Assembly (NCBI GenBank): GCA_018902385.1
Contig: JABSSW010000004.1
Location: 992,001-1,056,000 of the forward strand
Origin: Physcia stellaris
Lineage: Eukaryota > Ascomycota > Lecanoromycetes > Caliciales > Physciaceae
Direction of reading: 5' to 3'
Length of the DNA: 64,000 nt
A program made the position numbers and the translations under genes. Positions 1 through 58,088 of the stretch are shown piece by piece (positions within the stretch are counted from its first letter, which is position 1; each line of letters begins with the position of its first letter). The notes under the pieces were generated by a model. The model saw nothing but the letters and a program-made list of their open reading frames with translations. It was not told where the DNA came from and did no database searches.

Positions 1-86
1 CATTCGAAATTTTCGTTGATTACAACGAGATCGAATAATTCGTTGATTTGATTTTCGAAAAAATCACAAAAAATTTTGCGAAAAAG

Positions 87-1427
87 TCAACAATAAAACA
101 CATCATAAATTCGCATTGTTTCAAATAATTCAAATTGATAAAAACTGCTCATACGTTTCAACATTTTGTATGAATCAAATTTTTTGTCATCAAACTTGTC
201 GAATGATTTAGCGATTTTGATGTTTCGTCGATTCAAAAAAACGTAATTTTTTTCGACGTATTCGACGATTTTGCGATGTTTGTTAATTTGTGTCGTTATG
301 CGTTTTTGAATTATTTCGACGTGAACTCGTATATAATCGAAAATGTTTTGCATTGTGTTCGTGATGTTTTTCGTTTTAACGATCAAAAATCGCTTTTTTG
401 TCGTGACATACGAGATAAAATTCGATGAGAAACTTATACGTGAATGAAAATTCTTGTTGACGAAAAACGATGACAATTCAATAAATGCAAAAATCGCGTT
501 ATTGTTTGCAAATTCGATCATAAATAATCAAACGTTTCAATCGTTTTGCATGTAATTGCAATATTGTCGTAATTGTTTTTCGATGTTTTGATTGATTTTT
601 TCGATTTGATCATCAATTTCTGAATGAAAAATCGTGAAAAATTTACATTTGATGTCGAGAATTTTGCAAAAAACTTGTCATACAAAAAAAACGAATTGAA
701 AATTTCGATCAAATGTTATGAAAAAAAACAAATCATGAATACGAAACACGTATTGAATGAATATTTTTGTTGTGATTTCAACACTCGTGCTCTCGTTTTT
801 CGTTGTACATGATGCATAATGACGTTTTTTACTAAATTTGTCGATTATCGTGCAAATGACATTATGATTGTAAACGTCAAATAATTTCGTGATGAAATCA
901 ATGAATATATTCGTTCAACGTTGCAAAAATATGATCAAAAAAATGAATAATTCGTTTTTACGATTTCTGAAAACTTTAATTCGTTAACATTCGTGACAAT
1001 TACGTACGTATCGACGAATTGTTTTGCGCATGTTAAATCAATAATAATCACGACGTAAAAAATTTTTCATGCGATTAAATTCAGAATGATTCGATGCGAA
1101 AAATTCATAAATTTTTTTGAAAAAATCAACGAGCAAAAAAGCATCGACGAACACTCATAATCGATTTTTGTAATATAAAACATCGTTTTTTTCTTGACAA
1201 TCGCGTAAATTGATTTCATTCACGAAAATGAAATTTTGATTGAACGTTTCACGATATGTTTTGCAATCGTCGTTTGTCTTATTGACGACGAAAATTCGTT
1301 CGTAAATTGATTCGTCAAATTCGACGACATGAATTTCGAATCGTTCGAAAATGAACAACATTTGCTTTTTATATTGATGTCGTTCGTCGTTATCATTTTT
1401 AAATCGTGAATTCGACATGCGAATCAA
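87..1427 (-). pseudogene. Element A integrase remnant
   Basis: Pieces occur at 1,155-1,427 (linker and start of integrase), 518-712 (core) and 87-521 (C-terminal part). The 144-residue piece 87-521 has the Ty3/gypsy integrase C-terminal layout: EFANNNAIFAF, a long helix region with RITTQINKHRK, then NYVFLNRRNIKI and FDKFDDKKFDSYK. The match to 25,534-26,159 of C runs along its whole length. Integrase inserts element cDNA into the chromosome. The region 713-1,154 is strongly eroded core. Fossil. Confidence 0.85.
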
Positions 1428-1429
1428 AA

Positions 1430-1860
1430 CGTCTGTTTTAACGTTTTGAATTTCTGATTGAAACTAAATGACGATATTAAATTTCGATAAAATTTTTGCT
1501 CAACGAATTTGACGAAAAATTAATTTTTTCGAAATCATGAAAATTTTCAAATTTTTGTGATCGATGAAAATCTTGATCGATTCGTCAATGTTTTCGAATT
1601 TTGAACGTCAATGTTTTAAACAACGAATAATGATCAATAACTTTTTGTCATAAATTTCGTAATTGCATTCGATTGAAATCATGTTTCGACTGTAAAAAGC
1701 AACGAAATGTAAAATTTTTTCGTCATCGTATTGCGATAGCATTTTCGCATTAACGTAATTTGAAAAATCGATTTTCAAAATGATTTGTTTGATTTTATCG
1801 TAATAACGAAATATAAAAATTTCGATCATCGTTTTCTTAAATAAATTGAAAATTTCTTTT
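1430..1860 (-). pseudogene. Element A RNase H remnant
   Basis: The piece 1,608-1,829 reads as the RNase H domain of a Ty3/gypsy pol: the stretch IILKIDFSNYVNAKMLSQYDD corresponds to the first catalytic strand, followed by FVAFYSRNMI and CNYEIYDKKLLIIIRCL. It lies between the RT and integrase remnants as expected and is homologous to 24,417-24,638 of C. Fossil. Confidence 0.82.
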
Positions 1861-2006
1861 GTTTTTGTAATTCATTCGAATTTTACGAATTTCTTGATCA
1901 TTCGAATAAGAATTTTGATTTTTTTCGAAAAGTCACGAATGAAACGTCGATAAAAATTGACGAAATTCACGAAAATTTGTATTTTCTTGAAATTGATAAA
2001 ACGTGT

Positions 2007-3578
2007 TCAATCAATTATGATTTGTATTTTTTTTGAATTCATGCGAAAATCATTCATCGAAAATATAACGTTTAGAAAAATCATTTCTTTCTTAAAAAAC
2101 TCGTATTTCTCGATATTCATTTGTAAATCGATTTTTTTGAGTTTTTTCAATATTGTTCGAACGTACACGATATGCTTTTTTTTGAATTTGCTGTAAATGA
2201 ATATGTCATTCAAATAGACTTGACAGAATTCGTTCAAAAAATTGAACAAAAAATCATTCATGTAATGTTGTCAACTTGCAAAATCGTTGATTAATTCAAA
2301 AAATAATATTCGATATTTATACGATCTCATAAAAATGACGAACGTGATGAGTTTTTCACTTTTTTCACTCATTCGAAATTCATTGAAAATTGATATGATA
2401 TTCAACTTGATCAAATATTTGCAATTCTGAATTTTGATCAAAATTTTTTCGATCAAGAAAATAAAATATCGATTGCGTTTCGTGATGTGATTGAGTCGAC
2501 GATAATTCACACACAAACGTAATTGATCGTTGAATTTGATCGCAAATAAAACAAATGAAACGTATGTCGTTTGATTAAATACGATAAATTTCTTTTGTAA
2601 ATTTTTTTTCAAATATTTTTTCAATTTTTTAAATTTGAATTCGAATAGAAAATACATTCGATTGCGAAACAAAAAATTGTTATCGTTCAACAATTCGATC
2701 TTATGATCGTATAATTTATGAAAAAACAATTTGATAATTTTTTGAAAATCAAATACTTTTGATAAATGACGAAAATATTTTGACATTTTTTTCATTATGC
2801 GTTCGAATATCGATTTGATTTGTTCGTGTTTTAAAATTTTCTTGATCATGACGACGATTTTTAACGATTTCGAATTCGTTTGTAATGTTTTGAACGCGAA
2901 GTCGATTTGATTGATCGTAATGAAAAAACATTGAACGTTTTGTTTTCGATTTTTGACATCGATCAACAAACAAAAAAAAATTGTATCAATTATTGCGATA
3001 TTCATCGAATCGTCAAAATTCAATTCTGAAAATAGCGAGAATTTTGATTGTTGTTTTTTCGTTTTTCATCGTTTATTACGTTGATTTTTCAATTTCTTTT
3101 TTTTGACGAATGTCGTTTTCGTAACAATCGTAATATCAATTTTTGAATTATTTGATTCGATTGCTGACGACTCGTCGTCGATATCGATTTTTGAATGAAT
3201 TGAACATTCGAAACATTTCGAATCGATTATGTTTGATTCGTTTTCAACAATAAAAAATAAAAGTTTGATTTTGAAACGAAACAAAATGATATATCGAAAT
3301 CTCATCGTCGTTATGTGTTCTATATTATTTTTTTGCGATAATTTTGCATCGCGACGTCAATTAAATATATTTCATCGACGATTTGATTTGAAAATTTCTA
3401 AACGACGAATTTGCATCGTTTGATTGAATATGCTGTCGTGATGATTGCATCTGAACGATTTAAAAATCAATTTATCGTAAATTATGTTCAATATAATTTC
3501 ATGTTTGTTCATTCACGATTTTTCTAAAATTATCGAATGATTGTCGAAATCAATAATTAACAAAAAAACGATCAATTC
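2007..3578 (-). pseudogene. Element A protease-RT linker and reverse transcriptase remnant
   Basis: The minus-strand pieces at 3,066-3,305, 2,271-3,023 and 2,007-2,261 match C and F. RT landmarks are SFVLFAIKFNDQLRLCVNYRRLN (shown in part: LRLCVNYRRLN), YLIKLNIISIFNEFRM for motif A, and YLNDIFIYS where the catalytic YxDD box is expected. The last piece starts directly after the first. Reverse transcriptase copies element RNA in virus-like particles. This copy is a fossil. Confidence 0.85.
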
Positions 3579-3770
3579 TGTTGATGTATTGAATGTAAAA
3601 AGTTTGATTAATTATTTAGAAGTCAATGATCAAATATATATCATAGTAATTACATAAGTCAAGTCATTCAGTTGACTGAATGTCAATTGATTGACTAAAT
3701 GCTAAATACAGAAAATCTGTCTATTCATTTGACAATTTTCAAATTCTAATCATAATGTCAATTCATAACA
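3579..3770 (-). repeat. 3' LTR of element B
   Basis: The LTR is 192 bp with TG...CA ends, preceded by AATTC at 3,574-3,578. It is the partner of 11,191-11,382 and colinear with it without gaps. Confidence 0.95.
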
Positions 3771-3858
3771 ATTTGCTTCAATAGAAAGAAATTAACATTC
3801 GATTCGATGTTATTCATAGTCATATTATCATTCATACTTCATATTCATATCATATTTC

Positions 3859-4188
3859 TCAGTTGAATCGAGAAAAACGACGAATCAGAACGTTGAAAAA
3901 TTCGACGATGTTAAAAAAACTCGTAACTTGATCAGCTGATTTGACTAGCGAAATTGAAATGACGACGAAACTAATTAACGAAATCTTAAACGAAATGACA
4001 ACGACAAAGTTTTGCTTAGAAAATAAAATAGCTTGCGAAATTGACTCGAAATATTTTGAGAATATTGTTTTAATTGAAAAAATCGATGACATTGATAATC
4101 TTTCTTTAATTCTCGAAACTGACGTTGTTGATGATGATGAGATTGATGATGATAAGATTAATCGATCTGATAAAATAATTTGACTCAT
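3859..4188 (-). other. Element B 3' tail region
   Basis: The minus strand is open for 109 residues rich in Ser, Ile and Phe, starting MSQIILSDRLILSSSISSSS. A similar Ser-rich tail follows the chromodomain in B' (52,207-52,446, with ILSDRLILFSEFTNSSSSIS). It may be the C-terminal tail of pol. The + strand is also open here, but that looks like a shadow. Confidence 0.4.
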
Positions 4189-4194
4189 AATTGT

Positions 4195-4320
4195 TTCGTA
4201 ATCATTGATTAAATTCGTGACATTTTCGAGTTTTGAAAAGCTTCGTCATATATCATGTTCTGATTCGTAATCTTTTCATTCAACAAAATATTCAACGTTT
4301 CGTTTTTTGATCATGCGTTT
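4195..4320 (-). other. Element B chromodomain remnant
   Basis: On the minus strand the sequence after the integrase reads NIEYFVE, then KDYESEHD-like and an NxFxNDYE-like helix, the layout of a chromodomain. The B' counterpart lies at 52,147-52,255. A chromodomain at the integrase end marks chromoviruses and is known to direct integration towards heterochromatin. The call rests on pattern only. Confidence 0.5.
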
Positions 4321-4476
4321 GTTGATGATGCGTGACAACTCAAAAAATTTGACGTTAATTGTATCGTCGTTCACGAAAACGAAATCAAAATGATTTGATT
4401 TAAATCGCTTGAAAAAATCAATCGATGAAAACGAGCATTTTTTCAATTGAATTACGTTGAAAATCGAATGAATAAA

Positions 4477-5622
4477 TCAATTGCTGAAAATATTCAGTCG
4501 ATAAATCAGACGATCAATTTTTTCGATAATAATGAAAAATTCAACGAACTGTTGATCATACTTCTTGTTAATAATCGAAAATATATTATAACTCTTGTGT
4601 AACTTGATGAGCGCGACATTTTTTTGTTTCATGAACATAGATTGATGTTTTTTGTCATAATGAAATTTAGCATTCATTTGATCAAAGGCTATGACATCAT
4701 TAACATCTTAACGAGTGATAAAACGACGTTTTTTTAACGTGAACTCGAAAATATCGACGTCGATAAATTTAATCAAATCAATGACTTGAATTGAAATAAA
4801 GTCATAAACGATCTCATTTGAAAAGTTGTCAATGTTAACTGAATTGTTGAAATCTCGTTGTACTTGCGACAGAACGTCAGATCAGAAATCAAAATATTTC
4901 AGCGTAAAAATCAGAAAACGAAAAGCGATTTCAACGATTTGATTAATTCGTTTCGACAAATCGTTCGTCTGAAAATGATAAACAACTGAATACAAAAATT
5001 TAATTTCTAGTTTGATAAACATGACAGTTCACATGTTCGATAGAAATTTTCTGTCACGATTCGAAATAATAACTTTAAATAATTCTCAATCAGTCATATC
5101 TAAACGATTTAACAAGACATGATTTCATTGCGCAACTGTTCATGTGTTTTTGTTTGAAACTAACATTATACGCTTGAAATATTTACAGTTAATCGACATC
5201 ACGCAATCGAATTGATCGATTCGTGATTTTGATAAAATCAAAATGAAATCGATAATGATAATGTGAAAAAAAATATTCGAAATGAATATAAATTGCAATG
5301 AATCATAAAATTTGTGTCGACGTGTTTGATATGTTTGACATTTCGAACAATGTTTAAAAAAATTTCTGAAATATTTGAACAAGTCACGAATGTAATAGAA
5401 AGTTGCTATTTTCTCATAGTAACGAGCGAAATCTGAATGATTATCATCGTGAACGACGACTAAAATATTCTGAATAACTGAATGAAATATGCACAATCGA
5501 TGAGATTCGTAAACGTGATTGTCAATGATGAAATCATCAAATCGAAAAATTAGCTCATTAGTTTTTCGATAAAAAAGAAACTTGACGATGTTCTCGTCGT
5601 TTTTATTCTGTTGATTTAGCAC
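4477..5622 (-). pseudogene. Element B integrase remnant
   Basis: The piece 5,140-5,622 holds the HHCC zinc-binding region (HDDNHSDFARYYEKI, then FKHCSKCQTYQTRR) and the first core strand FHIIIIDFILILSKS. The piece 4,477-4,677 (MNAKFHYDKKHQ, LYKLH-like, IDRLIYRLNI) is the C-terminal part. Both match B' (50,824-51,303 and 51,571-51,969). Fossil. Confidence 0.82.
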
Positions 5623-5637
5623 TGAGCATATTTTTTT

Positions 5638-6390
5638 TCAATTCAAATCGTTGATGTAATTTGCGACAAGTTTCTTGCGAAAATCTTTTTCAATTTTCAT
5701 TAAAGTTGTCGTGAAAAGAGCATCGAACTCGTCTTTTTCGAATGTTACGTCAATATTGAAACTGATTAAACGAAAGAAAACGTCAAACACAATGTGTTGC
5801 TTGTTCGATTTATGACGCAATTCGACGTCGAATCGTTGAATATAATCAGAAACGCGAACAAGTCGAAAATTGAATTTGTCAATGAAAGCTGTAATCATGT
5901 TGATTTGTTTAATTATGTCTAAAATCGCGTCATGATTCGTGAAAATAATAATGAAACGTTGTTTCGAAAAGTCGATTAAATGTTTTATTTTTTTTAGCAC
6001 TCAGATTATATCAGCGAATTTTAATTCGATGAGTCAATATTTTGTTTTCGCGTTCGTTAAAAATCGACTAAAAAACAAAATAAATTCGATAACTTTTCTA
6101 AACGAATATTTTTTATCATTTCATTTGACGCTATTTTTCACATGATATATCATGTCAGCTAGTTCAAATTTCTTGTTAGCATCGAGATCGACGTATAGTT
6201 TTTTACGAAAATTCGAATGAACGAGATAAAAAAATTTAGCTAGCAAAAATTGTAATGTTTGAAAGAAAATTAATTCTTCAATAATGAAATTTTTAATTTT
6301 AATGTTGCGTGAATAGATTTTTCTGACATTGTCAATTACAAATTCGTCGTGAAATAGTTCAGTCTTCAACTTTTGAAACGATTTGAACAT
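5638..6390 (-). pseudogene. Element B RNase H remnant
   Basis: The pieces 6,121-6,390 and 5,638-6,000 follow RT. The second has FSKQRFIIIFTNHDAILDI, corresponding to the TDH strand of Ty3/gypsy RNase H, and VSDYIQRFDVELRHKSNKQH, matching the end of that domain before LSR. Homologous to about 50,077-50,800 of B'. Fossil. Confidence 0.72.
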
Positions 6391-6420
6391 TTCAACGTAT
6401 CAAAATACATAATCTCGTAA

Positions 6421-7600
6421 TCAACTCGTGAAACTCAAATACGTCTTCAGCAATTGCAAAATAATAGAAAAAAACAAACGTGAAATAACTTTCAACTTTT
6501 TTTCAACGATGATTAGTTCAAAAAAGTCAATTTTCTGATTTAGCAAATGAACAATGAAATAATCAATGAAAATCTTTTTCGATTTGATAAAAATGTTGTT
6601 AATTTTGAACATATCGAAAATTTGCTTGAAATGAGTTAAATGTTTTTGTAAAATGTTTGAATGAACGACGATATCGTTTACATATGTTTTAACGAAAATT
6701 CGAAACGATCGAAACAATCGATCGATTTGACGTTGTACGTAAACAGAAAAATTTTTGTAATTCATCACAATTACGTTGAAATTTTCTTGATTTTTATGTG
6801 TGATCACAATCAGCTTATGTTTATCGTCTGAATGAACTTTTCATTGATAGAAAAAAGCTAAACAATTCAGCACAATAATGTATTGACATTCTAAAACAAT
6901 TGAAATTATGTCGAATTGAAAAGATAAAGAATACACATTCGATTGAATGATAACGTTGAAATTTCGAATATTTACAACAAATCGATTTTTTTTCTTGTCG
7001 TTGATTTCTTTTCATACACAAAACACAAAATAACTAAATGAAATAAATTCGTCGATTCAATTAAATTTATCTGATTCATGTAATTTGTCAAAAGTTTCGT
7101 CGACAAACTTTCTATTCTTTTTGCTTAAAAAGTATATTTTAATCTTGTCAGATATTTTTTGTTTTCAATTCGATTTGAGCGAAATTTTCATTCAATTTTC
7201 TTGAAATAATTTGACAAAGTTTGTGTTTTTTCAAATATCTGAATAGATTGATATCAACTTTGTGATAATTTGCACGACATCGTCGCTAAATCGATGAATA
7301 ATGACGTCATTATCGAGAATGATTTTTGTCGAAAGTTTCAAATCAATTTTGATTTCGCATTTTTCAAATTTGAAATAACTGAAATTTCGCTTGTGAAAAC
7401 TAGAAATTGAAAATCGTTATAACAAATTGACGAAAACTGAACATCTAATTTTGAAAAATTTGACGTTGCGACAAAATCGAATTGTGAAAAACTTTCGAAA
7501 TTGCGACTGTAACGACGATAATTTCAGAAATGAAAAAACTATTATTTTCAACACGTTGATGACGACGTAAATCGCGACGATAATCTTTTTGAATCAGTTA
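6421..7600 (-). pseudogene. Element B reverse transcriptase remnant
   Basis: The clearest part is 6,421-6,807: a FSVYVQRQIDRLFR stretch is followed by FVKTYVNDIVVHS at the catalytic YxDD position, then HLTHFKQIFDMFKINNIFI and IHLLNQKIDF-type RT thumb sequence. Its B' counterpart is 49,678-50,025. Sequence up to about 7.6 kb holds the fingers and palm in eroded form. Fossil. Confidence 0.75.
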
Positions 7601-7668
7601 ATTTTATGTTTTTGAACAAAACGTCGTAAAATTAAATCGACGACGTGACTAGTTTCGTCGACGTGAAT

Positions 7669-8292
7669 CTAAAAAACATTGATGTAATTTATTTCGATTA
7701 TGTGATCGACGCGATAATTTCGAAATATATGAACGATTTGATTGCTTTCATTGCGAACGATAATCTGCTTAATATTGAAATTTACTAAATGAACGTAAAA
7801 TGAAAACTTCAATTCATTCGACTCAAAAAAATAATCTCGATCGAATGAAACAATTATGATTTGAAAAACTAACTCGAAACGAAAAAATACTACAGTGATT
7901 TTACGAGCATGAATCGAAATTTGAACAATTTTCTTAAACGTTCGAATCTTTAAATTAGCGATAATTTCACAATTCTCGATGTAAACTGTCTTTTTAAATA
8001 TGCTAACATCGATTTTTTTTGATTCAATAACGTCATTGCTCAATAACATGTTAATTTTGAGATTGTCGATCAAATGAATTTTTTTGATGATTTTAATTTT
8101 AACTGTGACGTCATTCTTCTGATCAGAAAAATACATAAATAAAATAGCATATTCGATTGTCATGTGTTTGTCGACATCTAGTTCACGTATTGAAATGAAT
8201 GTAATCATGATTTTAATAAACACATTCGAAATTTGTTTTTTGAAAAATTGACGATCACAAAAAGCTATTTCAACGTCGATGTCTAAACACAC
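7669..8292 (-). pseudogene. Element B aspartic protease region remnant
   Basis: The 207-residue piece starts near MCLDIDVEIAFCDRQFF, where the retroviral-type aspartic protease would have its D-x-G loop. It continues through FMYFSDQKNDV, KINMLLSNDVIESKKIDV and IVSFDRDYFFESNEL. The same order occurs in B' (48,231-48,866). Assigned from position before RT and from the general layout of chromovirus proteases. Fossil. Confidence 0.6.
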
Positions 8293-8343
8293 AAACTCGA
8301 CATCAATTGTAAAAAATAAAACTACATGAATACGTGCATAATT

Positions 8344-9057
8344 TCAGTTTCGAAAATCATGATTAATGTCGACGTTTTTGCTGAAATCGACGTCTGAAAC
8401 AATGATAAAAATCAATGCAAATTTAATTCTTTCAGAAAAGTCGAAATGAGCATCTGTGAAAAATTTCGACGTTTCTGATACAATAATTGAATCAGAATCG
8501 ATGACTTCGATTCTCGATTGCGTGATAAATGAATTCGTAAATTCGTTTGATTTTGAAATTGTCAGAAATTTTCTAATTGAATTTCGAATAATCACATTAA
8601 TGCTCTGAATAATCATAATAATAAAAAAGAACTGATTAAATACATTTGTTGAATAAATCAAACTAGTTTTGTCAAAACAATCGAAACGAAAATGTTCGTG
8701 TAATTTATTGTTGAAAAGAAAATCATTGTTACACTTTTTGCAAATAACTATTTTATTCGATTTTGACAAAAGCACTTTTGACGTGATCAAATAAACAACG
8801 TTGTCATTTTCGTCTTCGAAATCGTTGTAAAAAATTGATTGATAATATGAAATATTTTCTGAAACATGATAATCGTCAGCATTTTTTTCGTCAAAGTAAT
8901 TTTTTTCAATTTTTTCAATTTCGTTATTTTCGTTAACGTTGTAAACTTTAATCTTGTCAAACTTGTCAAACTTTCTGACGTTTGACTTGTTGAGTTTCTG
9001 ATTCGAAACGAATTCGTTTGAGAATTTTAGCAGAAAAAGCTGTTTTGCAATCGACAA
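8344..9057 (-). pseudogene. Element B linker with a C2H2-like zinc finger, between gag and protease
   Basis: The 237-residue piece is acidic and contains ICKKCNNDFLFNNKLHEHFR followed by FDC, that is C-x2-C then H-x3-H or C spacing. A similar block stands in the same place in B' (47,388-48,110). C2H2-like fingers before the protease are familiar from some fungal Ty3/gypsy polyproteins. Binding of nucleic acid is inferred from the motif. Fossil. Confidence 0.6.
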
Positions 9058-10667
9058 AACAGTTGAAAATGAATCGAAAAACTTTTGCTGATAACTTTCT
9101 GAAAACTGACGAAATTGATAACTTGATTGAAATTGATAAACTGAATTTCTATATTGATATGAATTGTAGTTCGGAGACGATCACATATACGCTTGATTTG
9201 AATAGAAAAAATTGACGTAAAATTGCTGATTAGAGTCGTTTCTATCTCGATTCTGCTTACTTGATCGATTAAATCGATCAACATTATTACTGAAATCTGA
9301 ATTGCTAGCTTGATCGCGATGACGAGTTGTTATATTCATTCATACACTTTTTTTCGCATTCAGCTGATTCAAAAATGTAGTCAAAATGATGTTTTCGAAC
9401 GATTCGAAAATTTGAATTCGAAAGTTCAACTCGAAATTACTTCAAACAATGATACATTGATGAAATACTGATGAAAAGTTTGCAATTCTGACATGTCGAA
9501 AAATATTCTGCATGTAAATTCGAAATTTGCGTTTTCGACGAGCGTCGACATAAATGTAATTTTCGATTTGTAATTTTTTCAAAACAGTCGACGTTCGTTT
9601 TTTGAATCGTTTGATAAAATGAATGCATCAACGTTCAATATTGATTTTTCGAAAAAAGTTCTTTTCAATTTCAGTTAGTTTCGCGTTATATCAAATTAAA
9701 ACATCGTTTTTTAAACAAATAGACATCAACTTCTTGATTCTAAAATCGAATGAAATTTTCTTCAGATTCTTAAGATAATCAGTGAAAGTGAAAACGTCTC
9801 GATAAAAATTGTGTCGATCAAAACTGACAATGAATTGATTTGTGCCGATTGAATTTTCATAATCAGAATCAAAATAATTCACATTTTCGACAAATTTGAA
9901 AACTGACTGTAAAATATTGTTGACAGCAAAAAATGTTTCAATTGCGAATCGAAACATCGAAACGAACGCGATAATCACGATCATAATGTCATTTCACAAA
10001 ATTTGATTCATTTCAATTGACGACGAAATTATTGAAAACATGTTGCGACGAATTTTTTCGATTTGAATGAAGAAAAATGTCTGATTATTGTCAGTTTGAA
10101 TGCTGATTGAACGACGTTCACTGTTCGTGATATTTGACTCGACAATAAATTGACGAAAAACGTTTAAATCAAAATCAAAATTAGTGATGAGCGAATAGCT
10201 AAAAACTATTAACGAAAAAATAAAATCACGAATTTCTGAATTGCTATTTCGTCGAAATCTTGAGCTAGTAGAAACTTCAGACTGAATAATTGTAAAAACT
10301 TCGAATCGAATAAAAATATCGAGTCTGAATACGAGAAACTGTTCATTCGAAAGCTGTACACGAAATATTGAAAATGACGACGAATTGTTAGCAAACGAGC
10401 TAATTACGATTTCGAATCTAATTGAGAAATTTCGAAAAACGTTTGATTATCGAAAATCGACAATGTCGATTCGAAATTGATTCAAAACGTTTTGCAGTGA
10501 AACAACGTCGTCAACTCACTGAAATGAGTAAACAACGTCGTGAACTCGTGTTCTAAAAAATCTGTAAATTTTAGCAATGAAAATTTCAATCGTACGTTTA
10601 TTTTCGTTGCTGAACAATAAATTGAAAAAGTGATCAATTTGCAAAAACTCGTGTATCGATCACGCAA
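9027..10667 (-). pseudogene. Element B gag remnant
   Basis: Minus-strand pieces at 10,482-10,667, 10,209-10,394, 9,691-9,984, 9,437-9,631 and 9,027-9,284 correspond in order to pieces of B' between about 45.7 and 47.4 kb. The best match is 9,691-9,984 with 46,467-46,673 (shared MIVII...FVSMFRF and NVNYFDSDYENS). No zinc knuckle of the CCHC type was found. Gag is assigned by position and by homology with B'. Confidence 0.55.
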
Positions 10668-11190
10668 ATTGAATAATTTGATTAAAAACTGAAATCAAAA
10701 TGTCGAAAAAGTGCTAGAAAAATGTCTGAAATTGTCTTTCTAATCAGTGATAAAATGTAAAAGACTTCTTAAATTAGTCGAAAAATTTTTTCAGTCATAA
10801 AAAACTTGCGACAAAAAGCAAATACAAATCAAAGAAATGTAATAGTAATTTATTGCAAAAAGAACAATCTGATATCAAGAAATGATTTCAAAACGAAACA
10901 ACGAACGTAAATGAAAAAAAGAAAAAACTGAAAAGAAAAAAAATTCAAATAAATGAGATTTGACTTCACTCAACGAAAAGATGCGAAATTGACAAATTAC
11001 ATCGATGACGAATCAAATGCTTCGATTGATGACGTAGTTAATCTGACTCGACGCAACGATAATGCAATGAAACACATCGAAAAAAGAAAACTGTTTTGAT
11101 GATGAGATAATACAAATTGACTGATTTCTGATTGCTGTTAACTATAATTAACGAACTGATTTGATGATGTAATAAATGATATTATCAGAT

Positions 11191-11382: not shown

Positions 11383-11387
11383 AATTC

Positions 11388-45311: not shown

Positions 45312-45374
45312 ATTTGATAACATCATTTATCACATCATCAAATCAACATTTTTGTTAATCATTCAATTAACGTA

Positions 45375-47418: not shown

Positions 47419-48110
47419 AATTTTCAAACGAATTCGTTTCGAATCAGAAATTCAACAAATCAAACGTCAAAAAATTTGAAAAATTTGACAAAATCAAAAT
47501 TTACAATGTTGACGAAAAAATCGAAAATAAATTTGAAAAAAAATTTTTCAATCAAAACGACGTCGATGTCGACGATCATTACGTTGACGATTATTATATT
47601 TCGAAAAACATTTTTTATTATCAATTTTTTTCATACAATGATTTCGAAGACGAAAATGACAATGTTGCTTATTTGATTACGTCAGAAATGTTTTTATTTG
47701 AATCAAACAAACTAATCATTTGTAAAAAATGTGACAATGATTTCACGTTCAACAATAAGTTACACGAACATTTTCGCTTCGACTATTTTAACAAAATCGA
47801 TTTTGTTTATTCTGTCGTAGTTGACAAGTTCTTTTTTATTATTATAACTATTCAAAGTTTTAAATCTATCGTGATTACGCGAAACTCAACTAGAAAATTT
47901 TCAATTAATAATTCATTTTCAATTACGTTTCGCGAATTTACGAGCTATTTTATCAAGTCGTCTGAATTTACTATTATCTTGTCAGATACGTCGAAGTCAA
48001 TCAACATTTCGACTTTTCTGAGAAAACTCAAATCTACATCGATTTTTATCATTGTTTCAGACGTCGATTTTAGCAAAAACGTCGACACTGATCATGATTT
48101 TCGAGATTGA
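47388..48110 (+). pseudogene. Element B' zinc-finger linker
   Basis: The 240-residue piece is acidic and contains ICKKCDNDFTFNNKLHEHFR near its middle, the same C2H2-like block as in B. It is preceded by an Asp/Tyr-rich stretch (DVDDHYVDDYYISKN) and followed by Ser/Thr-rich sequence up to the protease region (VSDVDFSKNVDTDHDF). Fossil. Confidence 0.6.
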
Positions 48111-48230
48111 AATTATGCACGTATTCATGTAATTTTATTTTCTACAATTGATGTCGAACTTGTTTGTTTAAACATCGACGCTAAAATAATTTTTTGTGAT
48201 CGTCAGTTTTTCAAAAAACAAACGTCGAAT

Positions 48231-48866
48231 GTGTTTATTAAAATCATGATTACATTCATTTCAATACGTGATTTAGATGTCGACAAACATATGACGATTA
48301 AATATGTTATTTTGTTTATGTATTTTTCTGATCAAAAGAATGACGTCATAATTAGAACTAAAGTCATCAGAGAAATACATTTGATTGATAATTTCAAAAC
48401 TAACATGTTGTTGAACAATGATGTTATTGAATCAAAAAAAATCGACGTTAACATATCGAATAAATCAATCTACATTGATAATTGTGAAATCATTGTTAGT
48501 TTCGAAATTCGAACGTCACGCATGATTGTTCAAATTTCAATTCACGCACGAAAAATTACAATGATATTTTCGCATAACGAGCTAATTTTTTCAATGCATT
48601 ACATTATTGTTTCATTCGATCGAAATTACTTGTTCGAATCAAACGAGTTCAATTTTTCACTTTACGCTCATTTAATAAATTTCAATTTCAAGCAAATTGT
48701 CGTTCGCAACGAAAACAATCACGCGATACACATATTTCGAAATTGTCGCGTCGATCATATGATTGAAATAAACTTTATCAATGTTTTTCAGATTCACGTC
48801 GACGACGTTAATCAAATCATCGATTTAATTTTTCGACGTTCAATTCAAATTCATAAAATTAACTGA
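48231..48866 (+). pseudogene. Element B' protease region remnant
   Basis: The 211-residue piece matches B's 7,669-8,292: ITFISIRDLDVDKHMTIKY, FMYFSDQKNDV, NMLLNNDVIESKKIDVN and IIVSFDRNYLFESNEF. It stands just before RT, where a retroviral-type aspartic protease is expected. Fossil. Confidence 0.6.
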
Positions 48867-48905
48867 TTTAAAAAAGTCATAGTTGCAATTTACGTCGTTA
48901 TCAAT

Positions 48906-50025
48906 ATGATAGTTGATATCGTTGAAACAACGTTTATTATTGTTGTTTCGATTTCGAAAATCTTTCACAGCTTCACATTGTCGCAACGTGAAATTTTCAT
49001 TCAATTAAATGTTCAGTTTTCGTCAATTTGTTACAGCGATTTTCAGTTTCTAATTTTCGCAAATGATACGTCAGAAATTTCAAATTTATCGTCTAATTTA
49101 AAATCTGAAAAGTTTGTCACAGAAATTATTTTTGAAAACGACGTTATTATTCATCGTTTTAACAAGAATGCTGTGAAGATTTTCACAGATCTAATAATTG
49201 AATATTTCGATTTATGAAAGAACATCGATTTCGTTCAGTTTTTTCAGAAAAATTGAATGAGAATTTCGCTTAAATCAGACTGAGAACAAAGAATATCTGA
49301 CAAGACTAAAATATATTCATTAGATAAAAAAAATAGAAAATTCGTCGATGAAATTTTCGACAAATTACACGAATCAAACAGATTTAGTTGAACAGACGAT
49401 TTTATTTTTTTTAATTATTTTGTCTTTTGCGTATGAAAAAAATTTAATGATCAGAAAAAAAGTCGCTCGATTGTAAATATTCGCGATTTTAATGTTATCA
49501 TTCAGTCAAACGTTTATTTTTTATTTTTACAATTCAACATTATTTTTGTTGTTATCGATTGTCAATACATCATCGTGTTGAATTGTTCGACTTTTTTATC
49601 AATGAAAAATTCATTCAGAAAATAGACATAAATTAATTGTAATCACGCATCGCGATCAAAAAAGCTTCAATGTAATTGTGATGAATTACAAAAATTCGTC
49701 AATTTATGTGCAACGTCAAATCGATCGATTTTTTCGATTTTATCGAGTTTTCGTTAAGATTTACGTGAACGATATTGTCATTCATTTATGCATTTTGCAG
49801 AAGCATTTCGAATATCTCAGAAAAATATTCGACATGTTACGTGTTAACAACATTTTCATCAAGTCGAAAAAAGTTTTCATTGATTATTTCATTGTTCATT
49901 TGCTTGATCAAAAAATCGACTCACTTGAATTAATCACGATTGAGAAAAAGCTCAAGATTATTTCACGTTTGTTTTTTTCTATCACATTTCAGCTTTTCGA
50001 AACGTATTTAGAATTTACGAGCTGA
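48906..50025 (+). pseudogene. Element B' linker and reverse transcriptase remnant
   Basis: The piece 48,906-49,217 is the linker (ends FNKNAVKIFTDLIIEYFDL, just before RT). RT proper is clearest at 49,678-50,025, with FVKIYVNDIVIHLCILQKH at the YxDD position and FDMLRVNNIFIKSKKVFID after it. Homologous to B. Sequence 49,218-49,677 is an eroded RT palm. Fossil. Confidence 0.75.
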
Positions 50026-50800
50026 TTACGTGATTACGTGTCGTGATACGTCGAAATATTCAAATCATTACAACAGTTGAAAATTGAATTATTTCACGAC
50101 GAATTTGTAATTGACAATGTCAAAAAAACTTATTCACGCAACATTAAAATCAAAAATTCTACTGCTGAGAAAGTAGTTTTCTTTCAAATTTTACAATTTT
50201 TATTAGTCAAATTCTTCTATCTTGTTCATTCGAATTCAGTTAAAAAACTATTCGTGAATTTTGATTTTAGCAAGAAATTCGAATTAACTGACATGATTTA
50301 TCATGTTAAAAACAATACTAATTGAAATGACAAAAAATATTCATTTCGCAAATTTATCGAATTTATTTTGTTTTTCAATCGACTTTTAATCGACGTCGAA
50401 ATCAGATATTGATCGATTGAGTTGAAATTAATCGACATAATTTGAATGTTTAAAAAAATAAAACATTTAATCGACTTTTTCGAACAACGCTTTATTGTCA
50501 TTTTCACGAATCACGATGCGATTTTGAAATTAATTAAACAAACAAGTTTCATTATTGCTTTTACTGATAAATTTAATTTACGTTTCATTAGAGTTTTCGA
50601 TTACATATAACGTTTCGAAATTGAATTACGTCACAAGTTAAACAAACAGCATATTGTGTCTGACGTTTTTTCACGTTTAGTCAATATCAATATCGACACA
50701 GTTTTCGAAAAAAATGAGTTGAATGTTTTGTTCACTGCTGCTTTAATGAAAATGAAAGAAAATTTTCGTTAGAAATTTGTTGTTGATTACAACATTGATT
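50026..50800 (+). pseudogene. Element B' RNase H remnant
   Basis: The piece 50,077-50,325 (KIELFHDEFVIDNVKKTYS to FELTDMIYHVKN) follows the RT connection. At about 50,480-50,720 the + strand reads QRFIVIFTNHDAI, the TDH strand, and later ELRHKLNKQHIVSDVFSRL, the end of RNase H. A minus-strand frame at 50,301-50,507 is a shadow. Fossil. Confidence 0.72.
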
Positions 50801-50823
50801 TAAATTGAAAAAAGATATTTTCA

Positions 50824-51969
50824 ATGCTTGATCAACAAAACAAAAACGACGTGAACGTCGTCAAGTTTTTTTTTTATCGAGAAAACGAATTAATTTTTCG
50901 CTTTGATGATTACATCATTGATAATTACGTTTATGAATTTCATCGCATTTGCATATTTCAATCAATTATTCAGAACATTCTCGTCGTTGTTCACGATAAT
51001 AATCATTCAGATTTTGTTCGCTGTTACGACAAAATAGCAGTTTTTTATTACATTCGCGATCTGTTCAAATATTTAAAAAAATTTTTTAAACATTGTTTTA
51101 AATGTCAAACATATCAGACACGTCGTTACAAATTCTATGATTCGTTACAATTTATATTCACATCGAATATTTTTTTTCACATTATCATTATCGATTTCAT
51201 TTTGATTTTATCAAAATCACGAATCGATCAATTCGATTGCGTGATGTCGATTAATTGTAAATATTTCAAGCGCATAATGCTAATTTCAAACAAAAGCACA
51301 TGAACAGTTGTACAATGAAATTATGTTTTGCTAAATCGTCTAAATATGATTGATTGAAAATTATTTAAAATTATTATTTCGAATCGCGACAGAAAGTTTT
51401 TGTCGAACATGTGAATTGTCATGTTTACTCGTTTAAAAAATAAATTTTTGTATTCAGCTGTCTATCATTTTCAAATTGATGATTTGTTCGAACGAATCAA
51501 TCAGATTGTCGAAATCGTTTTTCGTTTTTTAATATTTACGTTGAAATATTTTGATTTTTGACTTGAAATTTTGTCGCATGTGCAACGAGATTTCAACAAT
51601 TCAATTAATGTTGACAACTTTTCAAATGAGATCGTTTATGATTTTATTTCAGTTCAAATCATTGATTTGATTAAGTCTGTTCTCATTTTCGAACTCGCGC
51701 GATTCACATTAAAGAAACGTCGTTTCGTCATTCGTCAAAACGTCAATGACGTTATAGTTTTCGATCAAATGAATGCTAAGTTTCATTACGATAAAAAGCA
51801 TGAATTTATGTTCATGAAACAAAAAAATGTGACATTGATCAAACTGCATAAAAATTATAATATATTTTCGATTATCAGCAAAAAATATGATCAGCAATTC
51901 GTCGAATTTTTCATTATTATCGAGAAAATTGATCGTTTGATTTATCGACTGATTATTTTCAGCAATTGA
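50824..51969 (+). pseudogene. Element B' integrase remnant
   Basis: The piece 50,824-51,303 has the HHCC region (VVHDNNHSDFVRCYDK, KHCFKCQTYQTRR) and the first core strand FHIIIIDFILILSKS. The piece 51,571-51,969 (132 residues) starts SHVQRDFNNSINV and ends with FIIIEKIDRLIYRLIIFSN, as usual for the C-terminal part. Homologous to B. Fossil. Confidence 0.82.
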
Positions 51970-52139
51970 TTTATACATTCGATTTTCAACGTAATTCAAT
52001 TGAAAAAATGTTCGTCGTTTTCAATTGATTTTTTCAAGCGTTTTAAATCAAATCATTTTGATTTCGTTTTTGTGAACGACGATATAATTAACGTCAAATT
52101 TTTTGAATTGTTTCGCATCATCAACAAACGTATGATCAA

Positions 52140-52446
52140 AAAGCGAAACATTGAATATTTTGTTGAATGAAAAAATTACGAATCAGAACACGATGTATGA
52201 AAAAACTTGTCGAAACTTGACGACGTCATGAATTTCGTCGATGAATACGAAGCGACTATGACTCAAAACATTTTATCTGATCGTTTAATTTTATTTAGTG
52301 AATTTACGAACTCGTCGTCGTCAATTTCATCGTCGCTAACATCGTCGTCAGCTAAATTAGCAAAGTCAACTATTAAGATTTTTTCTGAACAGAAATTCGT
52401 CGTCGTCATTTCATCAAAGATTTTTATTGTTGACGTTTTTTTCTAA
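52140..52446 (+). other. Element B' chromodomain relic and Ser-rich tail
   Basis: At 52,147-52,255 the + strand reads NIEYFVE, KNYESEHDV and KLDDVMNFVDEYEAT, the spacing of a chromodomain: first strands, acidic turn, C-terminal helix. It is followed by a Ser-rich tail (52,257-52,446) as in B. Marks the family as chromovirus. Confidence 0.6.
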
Positions 52447-52574
52447 CGTTCTGATTCGTCGATTCTTTCGACTCGACTAAACTTTGATATGTTAAAAATA
52501 TGTGATTAGTATTGATACGAGACATGATAGAAATAAATCGAGACGAATGTTAGTTTCTTTTTATTGAAACAGAT

Positions 52575-52745
52575 TGTTATGAATTGACATGTGATTAAGA
52601 CTTGAAAACAATCAAATAATTAACTAATTAATTGTATTTAACATTCAATCAATCGAATGACTTGCTTATGTAATTATTATGATATATATTCTGATCATCG
52701 ATTTCTAAATAATTAATCAAGTTTTTTACATTCAATACATCAACA
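52575..52745 (+). repeat. 3' LTR of element B'
   Basis: 171 bp, starts TGTTATGAATTGACA and ends TACATCAACA, followed by GACGT. The G-containing, A-rich GAAACAGAT lies just upstream, near the expected polypurine tract. Confidence 0.94.
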
Positions 52746-52750
52746 GACGT

Positions 52751-53597
52751 GTTATGTTTCGTTTTTGAAATAAATAATTATATCGTTCAAATAAATTATG
52801 ATCGACAAGTTTAATCGTTCGATCAGAATGTTGTTGACGAAATTTTGAAACGTTGCAAATACATTAATGAAATCGAAAAACATAACGATATATTCAAAAT
52901 GTTCGTATCGTGTTTTGAACGTTGTTTTTCATTCATTTTCTTTTTTAATACGAAGTCGATTGTAAATCGTTATCATGTCAAAATTTGTATATTTGCGAAT
53001 TTTGTTTAGACGATTCATATTTTCATCGATTAATGATAAAAAATATTTATTTTTGATCGTTAAAAAATTAAAATTTTTGTAATTTACGCATAATCGTAAA
53101 GTTTCGTTTTTTTTTAACGAACAAGATTGAAACGTTCGCAAAAAAAATGAAAAATCGAATAAATTCGTTTTTCAAATGTTTATTCAAATATGTTCGTAAA
53201 ATTTTGAATTCGTTTTTTAACAATGCGTAAATGAATTCATACGATAATTTTTTGTTTAATTTTAAATTTATTGCATGATTATCGAATTCATAATCAAATA
53301 ATTCGTATGTTTTGTTTTCATTTGTCATGTCAACGAATTTTTTCAAAATTTCGAATAAAAAATTTTTGATTTTTTTTTCGTAAAAACAAAATCGATTTGC
53401 GATCGTCGTTCGATGTGTACGTCATTCAAATATTTTATCTCGTCAGAAATCATTTGTACGAACATGACGAAAACGTGTTTTTTTTCATTGAAAATTGCAT
53501 TGATTAATTTTTTTGATTCGATTTTTCGATACGATTTGTGATGAAAAAAAACGATTTTACAATCATTGATCACGATTCGATTTTGTCGATGTTTCAA
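52751..53597 (-). pseudogene. Element D reverse transcriptase remnant
   Basis: Minus-strand pieces are 53,343-53,597 (linker), 53,068-53,346 (YELFDYEFDNHAINLKLN, then ANVSILFVKKKRNF) and 52,929-53,141 (LRLCVNYKNFNFLTIKNKYF, YTNFDMITIYNRLRI for motif A). B' follows at 52,745. Homologous to E (17.8-18.7 kb). Fossil. Confidence 0.78.
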
Positions 53598-53647
53598 TTT
53601 ATATTGATTTCAAATAATTGTATTCAAAACAGATTTAAAATCATGTT

Positions 53648-54016
53648 TCAATTTAGATTTGTTTTTAGAAAATTATCGTTAAAAAAACGATTCACGTCGT
53701 TTTCGTTCTGTATTTCGAATTGCACGAAATAAATTTCATAAATTTTGAATGAATGATTTTTTATGATTATTGTTTCGCAATTCGATACGTTGAATGATTT
53801 TAATTCGAATCGTTTAACAAATTTATGATTTATTAAATTGATTTTGATTTTTGAATTCATAACGATTTCGAATTTCAATTTGCTTTTCTCGTCAAATGTT
53901 TTATTTATTTTGATTTTGATTTTTTTGCATTTGATCATGCGAAATTTTTTACGACGACGTTTTGCGTTTTTGATTTCGATAATGAACGTATTGAATTCGT
54001 TCGAATTTGAATTCAT
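53648..54016 (-). pseudogene. Element D protease remnant
   Basis: The 122-residue piece has FEIVMNSKIKINLINHKFVKRFE, here cut to NSKIKINLINHKFVK, matching E's VDSKTKINLINNVFVKKF at the aspartic protease loop. It ends with FVQFEIQNENDVNRFFNDNF, again as in E. Fossil. Confidence 0.7.
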
Positions 54017-54129
54017 TTGATCATTTGTTATTGAATTTTTTTTGAATCAATTTGATTGAAAATTATCAAATCGATTATTTTTTTGATTTTGATTCATGAA
54101 AAGATTTTTCGAATGAACGAATATTCGAT

Positions 54130-54716
54130 TTGATATTTTTATATTTTTTGATATTGCATTCAGATTTATCGCAATTTATACATCGATCGTTGTTCACGAT
54201 ATTTTTATATTCGATTTTGATTCAACGTCATAACTTTTTGAATTTGATTGACTTTCGATTAAAATTATCGAATTTGAATTTTTTATCGTTTTTTCGATCT
54301 TTTTGTCGATTTTTGTTAATTTGATTTTTGTTGTTTTCGTTTTCATCGAAATTATTTTCATTTTTTTTGCGTTTGTTAAAATCGTTATCAAATTTATTTT
54401 GATTGACATTGCGTTGTTTTTTGCGCTGAAAATTTTCTCGTTGTTTGAAACGTTTAAGAATTATTTTTTTGTCGTTTTCAATTTTTTGTTCGATCAGAAA
54501 GTTTTGATTATTTTGAATTAAATTCAATACGAAATTTTGTAATTTTATTGTTGATGAAAATTTCATAAACGAATGTAAATTCGAAAACAAAACGATACGA
54601 TGAACATCGTAATTTTTTATTGTTTGATTCGTTTGTTGTTTATAATTTTTATATTTTTCGAAATTATTTTTTTTTAGTGAAAATTTTTTTAGTATTTTTT
54701 TTAAAAAAGTCGACAT
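54130..54716 (-). pseudogene. Element D gag remnant
   Basis: The 162-residue minus-strand piece (54,228-54,716) starts near MSTFLKKILKKFSLKKNN and has NYDVHRIVLFSNLHSF, then a Lys/Asn-rich tail with FNRKSIKFKK, as in E's gag. Overlapping + strand frames are shadows. Sequence up to the 5' LTR is untranslated leader. Fossil. Confidence 0.65.
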
Positions 54717-55204
54717 ATTTTTTTCAAATGTAATTGATTTTCGAATTGTTTTTGACTTTAACGTTTCAAAATAATTGTGCGATAAATTTTTTTTTCAAAA
54801 AAATTACAGCAAAGAAAAATTTAATTTTGTCAAAATTTTTGACGTAATCGTTCATTTGATTCATGTCGAATTGATTTTTCATTTTTCAAACGTATTGAAT
54901 TCATTTTTTATAATTATTTTCAGCGAATAATTCTGATTTGTTTTTCATTATTTTGATGTAAAACGATTTTTTTTTAAAAACAAAAATCTGAACGATCGAA
55001 AATATAAATGCACGTTGTAATGTTTTTATTCGAACATGTTGTTATTAAATATATGTTCGATATTTTTTCATGATAACATTTGACTTTGATGAATTCAAAA
55101 TGAATTCATTTTCAAAATTCGTAAAAATATTCATATTGTTGAAAAATGTAAACATGCTGTATACACGAATAATGTTAATTTGTGAATTATGATAATTATT
55201 AAAA
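54717..55204 (-). other. Element D leader, gag N-terminus
   Basis: Between the 5' LTR and the clear gag piece there are only short open stretches on the minus strand. This should be the primer-binding site and gag N-terminus by position. Nothing recognisable remains. Confidence 0.4.
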
Positions 55205-55513
55205 TGTAAAATTCAAAAAATGTGACATCAAAAATGTATAACAGAAACGATTGTATGACTAAATTAATAATTGCAAAATTAATTATTTTTCAAATTTCTG
55301 TTCATATAATTAATCAATCTGTTCAATCGTACACATATTTCGAAATCTATTCGAAAATATGAACTTGTTGAATTCAATCGAAAATTTGATGTTGACGTGA
55401 TCAAACTAATCGTTTTCGTAATTTATCGAATTTCGATGATCGAATTGTTTGATATAATTTTATCGAAATTCGATTCGTAATGTTTTGTTGATTTGAATTC
55501 TGAATGTTTTATA
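55205..55513 (-). repeat. 5' LTR of element D
   Basis: 309 bp, written on + as TGTAAAATTC ... GAATGTTTTATA. About 15 transitions from its partner, ten at CpT/ApG, four at CpA/TpG and one at CpG. Confidence 0.93.
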
Positions 55514-55518
55514 ATATG

Positions 55519-55990
55519 ATTGCGTTTCGTTCAATTCAATTCAACGTAATTACGATATTTACAAACGAAAACTGTTCACGATTGTTCATTTTACTAAGAA
55601 ATATAAACACATTTTTGATTCGAAAAATCGAAACACAATTCACATCGATTACAAATCGTTCGTGAAATTCATGAATGCGCAAAAGCACGAAAATATTTAT
55701 GTTCGTTGAATTAACAAATTTCGAAATCACAATATTCAAATCAAATACATTGAAAACAAAAAAAATCAAATGATCGACGATTTTTCACGCGTCATTTTCA
55801 ACAAAAAAAATTGCGAATTCGATCAATTGATTAAAAATTTGCATCGTGAAATTATCAAACATAAAAACGATATTGAATGAATTTGAAAAATCGACAAAAA
55901 CGAATATCGCGATACGTTGAAAAAATTGTTTACAAAAAACGAAAAACGAAAAATCGAAAAATACGATGAGCAAATTATTGCTCGAATAAA
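55519..55990 (+). pseudogene. Element H RNase H remnant, second half
   Basis: The + strand reads RNYDIYKRKLFTIVHFTKKY, then NRNTIHIDYKSFVKFMNAQ (the TDH-type strand) and HNIQIKYIENKKNQMIDDFS (end of the domain). These are the last landmarks of Ty3/gypsy RNase H in order. Minus-strand frames at 55,536-56,018 are shadows. Fossil. Confidence 0.78.
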
Positions 55991-56389
55991 TTAAACGTTT
56001 TATTGTGTAAAAAAACAATGTTTCTTGTTCGATTTTATGTCATATGACGCAAAAAACGATTCGAAATTACATGCGATAATTCAAAATTTTCAAATCGAAA
56101 ATATAATCAGTGAAAAAAAATCGAATTATATTCAAAAAGTTTGATATTCAAATATTTATGCATATTACGCACAAAAAAAATCATCGAAAAATTTGAACAA
56201 AATAGCGATAATCGCATTTAAACGTAAAATCAACAATTATCGATGAAACGAGTCAACAAATTGATTATTGCATATTTACGTTGAAAAATGATGTATTTGT
56301 ATCACGAAAACAAAAATTGCATCGTTGTTGCAAAAAATTTATGACGAAATCGAGCATTTTTCGTCAAACATTGTTTTTAATCGCATCAA

Positions 56390-57539
56390 GAATCGAATAT
56401 ATTGATTTTTCATGATTTCAAATGTGAAATTATACATATTAAATTGTTTGCAATGTACACAATGAATCGTAATTGCACGTTAAATTTTTTTACATTCAGT
56501 TCAAACGTATCAATTTTACGATTTGTTCGACATCGATTTCATCGATTGATTTGATTTTTTTGAACACGAATACAAAAATATTTTTAATTTGATTGATTAT
56601 TTCGTTGAAATATTATTCGCGTATTCAACATTCGATATTTTTGTTTTTGACGTGAAATAAATTTTTGATTATCATCAAAATAATGAATATTTTATGTTTG
56701 CGACAGTGTATTGAAACGCGAATTCAACATTCAAATCGAAAAAAATGAAAAAAATGTTTGATAATCGTAATATTATTTGCATATTTGTTTCAAGTCAATC
56801 TCATAAATCAATTGACATAATTGAACAAAACAATAAAATATTCAAACATATCATGAACAAAATGAAAAAATCGAACGAAAATTTTTTTGATATTTTTCGA
56901 CGAACAATTTTTGTCTGTAACGATCGTTATATAAAGCATTTAAAATATATTTTCAATCAAATTTTGCATGATATCGAATTTTTCAATCTCGTCGTCGTTC
57001 GATTTGTACAATTTTTACAATTGTTCGAAAAGATAATGCTTTTCAATTTCGACGAAATGTTATCGCTGATATGAAATCATATGATTAAACGCGAAAAAAT
57101 TTATAGAAATGTGATAAAGTGCATGACGAAAATCAAACAACGTATGAAAAAACGTTACGATCGTGAAATTAAATTCAAATTATTCATGTTCGATCAATAC
57201 GTGTTTTTTCGTAACATCAATTTCATTTTTGACAAAAACGTATTTCGATGTCGTGAATCATTCGTTATCGTTAATTCGACGAACGAACACGAATTCAATT
57301 ATCATTTTTTAAAATTCGATAACAAAAAAATTTCGAATCAGTTTCACGATAATCATTTACGATTTTTTTTTGTTCGCGAAAAATATTTGCGCTCGATCAA
57401 TGAAAAAATTTTATCAATCATGAAAAATTTCAAAAAAACGAAAAAAAAAACGATGAAAAAAACGAAACAAAAACGAAAAATCAAAAAATCATTTGAACAA
57501 TTTATTCAATACAATTCGATTTCGATTAAATATCGATAA
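56390..57539 (+). pseudogene. Element H integrase remnant
   Basis: A CLQCTQ relic of the HHCC region is near 56.45 kb. The piece 56,745-57,074 holds the end of the core (SSQSHKSIDIIEQNNKIFKH, then ACNDRYI-like VCNDRYIKHL). The piece 57,081-57,539 is the C-terminal part: MKKRYDREIKFKLFMFDQYV, VFRCRESFVIVNSTNEHEF, NQFHDNHLRFFF, a Lys-rich tail. No chromodomain seen. Fossil. Confidence 0.8.
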
Positions 57540-57889
57540 AAAATTCATTTAATTGTTATACAAATCGAAATTACGTCATCGATATGTTGCAAAATTTCGA
57601 ATCGTTCAAAAACGAAATTTTCGAATCAACATACGATTTCGACATTTCGAATTTGCGAAACGATATTTCGTATGCGAAACTTGCTAACAAAATTGAATTT
57701 TTGATTATTATTTGATGTAAATTTTTTCGACGATTTTAATATTTCGAAAATTGTTAAACGATCACATATTTCATTAATTTGTTTGAAAATCGATGACAAA
57801 ATAACGATAACGTATGAATATCGACGCTGTCGTTCAAAAAAAAATTAATAAATTGTCGCTGAAAACAACGATTTGTTGTGTAAAAAAAC

Positions 57890-58088
57890 TGTTGAAAAAA
57901 AGTTACACGAAAATGATTGAAAAGTCAATTGACAAATTGCACGTGATTAGTTTTAAATGTTTGACATTCGATTTTTTACATAATCATTTGTAACATTTTT
58001 TTGTTTAATCATAATTGAAATTATTTTACATCTGTTTCATTGATTCTGATAATTGATTTCATTGAATTTCGATTTCGTACGATCTACA
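57890..58088 (+). repeat. Possible 3' LTR of element H
   Basis: After a short A-rich tract (GTAAAAAAAC) the sequence TGTTGAAAAAAAG begins, and it ends in GATCTACA just before the switch to balanced composition. That gives a TG...CA segment of about 199 bp. No partner LTR is in the window, so both ends are guesses. Confidence 0.3.

Follow-up and report, generated by a model that had tools for sequence, protein, structure and literature searches.

Loss of cytosine before pyrimidines in a block of nested retrotransposons of Physcia stellaris

Repeat-induced point mutation (RIP) of the Neurospora type, in which RID and DIM-2 act, is the closest described counterpart of the decay reported here for a 64,000-nucleotide stretch of the ascomycete Physcia stellaris (hereafter the window; assembly GCA_018902385.1, contig JABSSW010000004.1, positions 992,001 to 1,056,000 of the forward strand). 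The AT-rich part of the window, hereafter the block, consists mostly of nested long terminal repeat (LTR) retrotransposons, and has in common with Neurospora-type RIP dense, cumulative C-to-T change on both strands of transposons beside untouched genes. The order of target dinucleotides in Neurospora, however, is CpA > CpT > CpG > CpC, and in Trichoderma another order is found in which CpC likewise comes last (PMC5496416; this and the other papers are cited for the passages that bear on the point at hand). In the block the order is CpC > CpT >> CpA > CpG, and the usual RIP indices miss it. The decay works like RIP but lacks the CpA preference of canonical RIP.

Other described systems share single features with the block. 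Ten fungal genomes displayed CpA, CpT or CpG signatures, and the word CpC does not occur in the main text of that report (PMC4352252). In the CpT-biased RIP of Magnaporthe oryzae, Botrytis and Sclerotinia, CpT is a main target, as it is in the block, but it is paired with CpA (PMC4352252), whereas in the block CpC comes first and CpA is nearly spared. The CpG/TpCpG hypermutation of Basidiomycota is also a C-to-T decay of transposons in a non-CpA context; its target CpG (PMC4352252, PMC4014442), however, is the most spared context in the block. The Dim2-dependent mitotic mutation of Zymoseptoria tritici resembles the decay in being methyltransferase-linked C-to-T change in transposons, but more than 98% of it falls at CpA (PMC8016269). 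A preference for CpA was concluded to be common to RIP-like defences in a 2025 survey of 1,239 fungi (PMC12543289); the block would be an exception to this. Possible partial precedents are Stagonospora repeats depleted in CpC and GpG as well as in CpA, the CpC-to-TpT double mutations of Monilinia, a table for Rhizoctonia solani AG8 in which CpC is the densest class of single-nucleotide polymorphisms, though the text names CpG, and an Ascomycota survey in which CpT-to-TpT is the dominant form in control fungi. No description of CpC-first decay of repeats was found in the passages seen of the open-access literature, most subscription papers lying outside that scope.

Dinucleotide composition of the block and its flank

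The GC content is 25.7% in the block (1-58,088) and 47.5% in the flank (58,089-64,000). On the plus strand of the block, CC and GG together occur 5 times against 1,921 expected (1,804-2,083 in 200 mononucleotide shuffles). Counted on both strands, the observed/expected ratios are 0.00 for CC/GG, 0.26 for CT/AG, 1.26 for CA/TG, 3.41 for CG, 1.48 for TC/GA and 0.44 for TA, while all 16 dinucleotides of the flank lie at 0.79-1.17 of expectation. In the block, C/(C+T) has fallen to 5/8,204 where the next base is C and to 1,416/22,322 where it is T; with a following A (6,963/14,044) or G (6,554/13,516) it is near the flank level. (CpC+GpG)/(TpC+GpA) is 0.0006 in the block and 0.72 in the flank; CpA/(CpA+TpA) is 0.50 and 0.55, respectively. 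The extreme loss of C before a pyrimidine in the block is real; it involves both strands and all the transposon sequence identified in the window, and is absent from the flank apart from a slightly low CpT in its first 250 bp.

These counts bear out the initial annotation, which had described surviving C as almost always preceding purines (90.5% in the block) and had cited two samples, 16,681-16,980 (a single ApG, with CpT, CpC and GpG all lacking) and 23,701-23,760 (none of the four). Its remark on the translated remnants also holds: eight block open reading frames (ORFs) picked by the analyst, 1,730 aa in all, contain no Gly, Pro or Trp and 63 Gln. The 16-dinucleotide count that it proposed as a check places CpC and CpT far below expectation in the block only. 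CpC and CpT are depleted to different degrees: 0.06% of CpC is left, compared with 6% of CpT, a figure that rises to 16% for the element at 3,579-11,386. The sparing of CpA that it claimed is likewise confirmed by the retention at 0.50, but is not total, as seen below in the LTR pairs.

The pattern may be summarized by a simple rule, under which C would change to T on either strand where the next base is a pyrimidine (CpY). Since such changes leave the purine/pyrimidine pattern intact, every pyrimidine-purine step is spared. These steps are nearly evenly represented on the plus strand of the block (TA 3,541, TG 3,352, CA 3,611 and CG 3,277); they are about 50% GC, like the flank, and remain between 0.46 and 0.54 in each 2-kb bin. 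They may thus preserve the pre-decay composition of the DNA.

When the rule was run on the flank, at rates picked after the block had been inspected (CpC 0.998, CpT 0.88), the simulated GC content was 0.251, compared with 0.257 in the block, and the Kullback-Leibler divergence (KL) was 0.004. The largest misfits (simulated versus block) were GC (1.10 versus 0.84), CA/TG (1.43 versus 1.26) and CT/AG (0.17 versus 0.26), and an additional 8% loss of CpA did not improve the fit (KL 0.0045). Rival models, simulated on the flank at one fixed setting each, gave KL values of 0.257 (Neurospora-like), 0.169 (all-C decay) and 0.685 (CpG decay), and all three were rejected. The block sequence is therefore accounted for quantitatively by a CpY-context C-to-T mutator.

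Direction and dose of change in the nested elements

Self-comparison at E 1e-20, together with the element edges, resolved four host-and-guest pairs of LTR elements in the block: E2 holds E1, F holds C', G holds H, and C holds D (Table 1). Target duplications of 5 bp are found at six of the seven complete LTR pairs; they are identical for E1, D, G and H, and one transition apart for C and C'. The elements are of Ty3 type by domain matches. LTRs with target duplications are present, and reverse transcriptase (RVT_1; E 9e-4, below the cut-off) precedes integrase (Integrase_H2C2, 50824-51303; E 2e-7) in D, the only element in which this order was observed. The 428-aa frame of G matched the Ty3 reverse transcriptase in PDB (E 5e-5), and had no Pfam match at E 0.01. 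Among 18 block ORFs compared with Pfam (8 at E 0.01 and 10 at E 1), five carry transposon domains, namely Integrase_H2C2 twice and, below the cut-off, RVT_1, RT_RNaseH_2 and SH3_Tf2-1. The remaining matches seem fortuitous, with E values that all exceed 0.03.

The two LTRs of each of the seven pairs were taken as identical at insertion. At sites where C persists in one or both copies, discordance is 60/70 for CpT, 28/240 for CpA and 3/109 for CpG, and no CpC is left, 168 sites being T in both copies (82 sites with differing 3' bases were kept out of these counts). Transversions number only 8 in 1,622 sites, and the purine/pyrimidine identity of the pairs is 0.98-1.00 even though CpT sites differ. 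CpA-to-TpA change is not dominant in these aligned copies; discordance is highest at CpT.

The target duplications show the same direction in DNA outside the elements. At C', the copy whose last base meets the T of the LTR has lost its C (CGTTT), and the copy standing before A has kept it (CGTTC). At C, the copy whose G follows T has kept it (GTATG), and the one following the A of the LTR has lost it (ATATG). In total, copies changed in 2/5 cases in the vulnerable context and in 0/5 in the pyrimidine-purine context. The reverse transcriptase motif, in a weak alignment to Ty3 YLDD (E 0.02), was read in two copies: in both, the first Asp codon, which follows a purine, is now AAC (Asn), and the second, which follows C, is still GAT. 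Moreover, the only stop that the rule creates is TGA, by changing the Trp codon TGG. Sense-strand open runs of at least 80 codons terminate 55 times in TGA, 18 times in TAA and 3 times in TAG, which differs in the TGA:TAA ratio from the background trinucleotides (TGA 3,854, TAA 2,966; p = 0.001); the sense orientation was assigned by the analyst from ORFs and alignments, with 38026-41409 left out. LTR pairs, two of the five informative target duplications, the catalytic motif and TGA-rich stops agree on the direction of the CpY decay. These lines and the simulation uphold the CpY-context mutator proposed in the initial annotation.

The loss hazards relative to the flank are 5.0 (CpC), 1.15 (CpT), 0.08 (CpA) and -0.03 (CpG) in E1, and 6.7, 3.2, 0.07 and -0.20, respectively, in F; the CpC hazard is a lower limit for any element with no CC left. 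The CpA hazard ranges from -0.03 to 0.18 among the eight elements, and the rate for CpT is about four times lower than that for CpC in E1 and D. CpT survival is higher in the guest than in its host in all four cases (Table 1), significantly so in E1/E2 (p = 2e-28), D/C (1e-31) and H/G (2e-5), and not in C'/F (0.09). The decay is heavier in hosts, as a cumulative mutator predicts, and older elements seem to have received a larger dose. E1 and D, which belong to one family, exceed every other element in CpT survival, and are perhaps the youngest arrivals.

Weighing of the possible agents

It is likely that a RIP-like mutator inactivated these nested LTR elements, and that it is probably an enzyme of the RID or DIM-2 kind with an altered 3'-base specificity. 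Such a mutator would work on both strands and sense the 3' neighbour of the C that it attacks, its rates falling in the order CpC > CpT >> CpA > CpG. Repetition would be its trigger and the sexual cycle its time of action, as in RIP; what the window itself shows is a decay that halts abruptly at its border with intact DNA. The enzyme would be a DNMT1-family protein whose target recognition now favours a 3' pyrimidine; the data do not choose between RID and DIM-2. Rather unlikely, in our estimation, is a repeat-directed mutator other than RID or DIM-2 with a built-in CpC-first specificity, which would have taken over genome defence and been overlooked because the indices measure CpA and TpA.

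Several observations weigh against the RIP-like account or limit it. CpA is measurably hit (discordance above that of CpG in the LTR pairs, p = 0.007), so that a weak CpA activity exists. CpT survival in E1 and D varies with the base after T (0.35 for A, 0.43 for G and 0.20-0.21 for C and T), and this roughly twofold effect means that the specificity extends beyond the dinucleotide. Two segments, 38026-41409 and 55514-58083, have no other copy within the window (E 1e-20) and are mutated to the same degree as the rest, which fits repeats elsewhere and spreading equally well. Three of the five informative target duplications (E1, D and H) retain C or G in the vulnerable context, and these adjoin the elements with the highest CpT survival. 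Antisense open runs end in TGA 14 times and in TAA 11 times, in apparent contrast to the sense strand. Finally, CpT in the first 250 bp of the flank is the lowest of ten bins (0.37; others 0.43-0.65).

The weak CpA change is all that favours canonical CpA RIP, to which almost no credence is given. CpA/(CpA+TpA) is nearly the same in block and flank, TpA/ApT is 0.451 and (CpA+TpG)/(ApC+GpT) is 1.358 in the block, and none of 116 1-kb block windows passes either of two index rules (one of them as quoted in PMC10998396). With CpA so retained, canonical RIP cannot be the main agent, as the initial annotation had held. The index result also shows that scans of this kind for RIP can miss a fully decayed block of 58 kb. 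An artefact, or a native composition of the transposons, is suggested only by the oddness of the pattern itself and is very improbable: the LTR pairs are nearly identical in purine/pyrimidine pattern yet differ at CpT sites, and the rule has been followed both by conserved catalytic codons and by two duplicated target sites, whose sequence is not that of a transposon. Deamination of 5-methylcytosine (5mC) at CpG and ultraviolet-type dipyrimidine damage were also rejected, because CpG is not lost and because TC, which such damage would remove, is enriched.

Slow passive decay deserves closer consideration. A DIM-2-like enzyme might methylate CpC and CpT in heterochromatin, where 5mC would then deaminate with no active mutator. 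Given intact insertion of the elements, however, hazards of at least about 5 for CpC and of 1.2-3.2 for CpT per element, set against the eight transversions in the LTR pairs, would make CpC change more than 1000-fold faster than transversions. Such an excess is beyond what is known of ordinary 5mC deamination. As for DIM-2 itself, a CpT preference is reported in Neurospora (PMC13297926), which would suit passive decay, but in Zymoseptoria Dim2 methylation falls at CG, then at CA and CC, with almost none at CT, and the Dim2-linked mutation occurs at CA and not at the more methylated CG (PMC8016269). We regard passive decay as unlikely.

A strict, short C-to-T context would also be expected of a cytosine deaminase unrelated to RID and DIM-2, whether APOBEC-like or acting on double-stranded DNA. 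The known deaminases of these kinds read the 5' base, and APOBEC-type editing is strand-biased. In E1 and D, however, the 5' base has only a mild effect (relative CpT survival 0.24 after T, 0.34 after A and 0.34 after G; the value of 0.008 after C arises because the first C of CCT is itself CpC), and TC is enriched. Survival of CT and AG, compared without adjustment for starting composition, is unequal in E1 (p = 8e-7), D (1e-6), C' (0.02) and 38026-41409 (0.03), but without a common direction: when each element is read in its own orientation, more AG survives in the E1/D family and more CT in the C/C' family. Editing by such a deaminase is thus highly doubtful, and the APOBEC type, with neither its 5'-base context nor its strand bias in evidence, was rejected.

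The mutating enzyme leaves its fingerprint in the base that follows the C it attacks, and, if a RID- or DIM-2-type mutator is responsible, the reversed order would represent a natural swap of specificity that could reveal the residues by which RID or DIM-2 reads that base. A 2024 paper on the structure of DIM2 leaves the influence of sequence context to future study (PMC11315935). CpY decay would also kill genes in a different way. In a simulation on two flank ORFs it produced 2.3 stops per 100 codons, compared with 5.6 under CpA mutation, and removed Gly, Pro and Trp; open frames of up to 428 aa persist in the block.

Elements and flanking genes

Table 1. Features of the window, with CpT survival and target duplications of the elements
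Feature	Coordinates	Strand	CpT survival	Target duplication	Remarks
AT-rich block	1-58088	.			C survives mostly before A/G, G mostly after C/T
Decay edge	~58084-58114	.			Sharp; CT/AG becomes dense at 58084 and CC/GG reappears at 58114
Unaffected flank	58115-64000	.			Normal dinucleotides; DUF7730/2EXR ORFs
E1	3579-11382	-	0.157	AATTC (3574-3578, 11383-11387)	LTR match 3579-3774 / 11191-11386; nested in E2; least mutated; CpC 3/1206 (counted, with CpT, on 3579-11386)
E2	1-13641	-	0.060		Host of E1, split at 3578/11387; one LTR 13402-13641, other end outside the window; CpC 0/903
F	13902-27106	+	0.020	No match (13897-13901 versus 27107-27111)	E2 family; host of C'; LTR match 13901-14131 / 26877-27107
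C'	15761-22248	+	0.027	CGTTT (15756-15760) / CGTTC (22249-22253)	Nested in F
G	27225-38025	+	0.035	ACGTA	Host of H
Open frame in G	33137-34423				428 aa; matches Ty3 reverse transcriptase
H	28914-32230	.	0.066	TATTC (28909-28913, 32231-32235)	Short LTR element nested in G
C	41410-55513	-	0.036	GTATG (41405-41409) / ATATG (55514-55518)	C' family; host of D
D	45141-52745	+	0.118	GACGT	E1 family; nested in C
Reverse transcriptase fragment in D	49678-50025	+			Site aligned to Ty3 YLDD reads Y-V-N-D (GTG AAC, then GAT)
Flank ORFs	60168-61127, 62982-63833				Pfam DUF7730 above cut-off; 2EXR at or below cut-off

Element F lacks a matching 5-bp target duplication although its LTRs are 96% alike, which perhaps reflects recombination between elements. 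An inverted LTR of the same (E2) family lies about 260 bp from F. The ends of the C' LTRs differ by a CpA change (CA at 16073 in the 5' LTR, TA at 22247 in the 3' LTR), which adds to the sparse evidence for a weak CpA activity alongside the CpY one.

An integrase frame had no match in PDB, and one reverse transcriptase frame and one integrase frame had no relatives in viral_contigs, so that no intact outgroup element was available for comparison. The tRNA scan of the window returned none, and the tandem-repeat listing has 36 rows. One flank protein searched in genome_contigs had no relative there. DUF7730 and 2EXR, to which the two flank ORFs are matched, are fungal families; the two ORFs lie close together, and possibly represent a duplicated family that escapes the decay.

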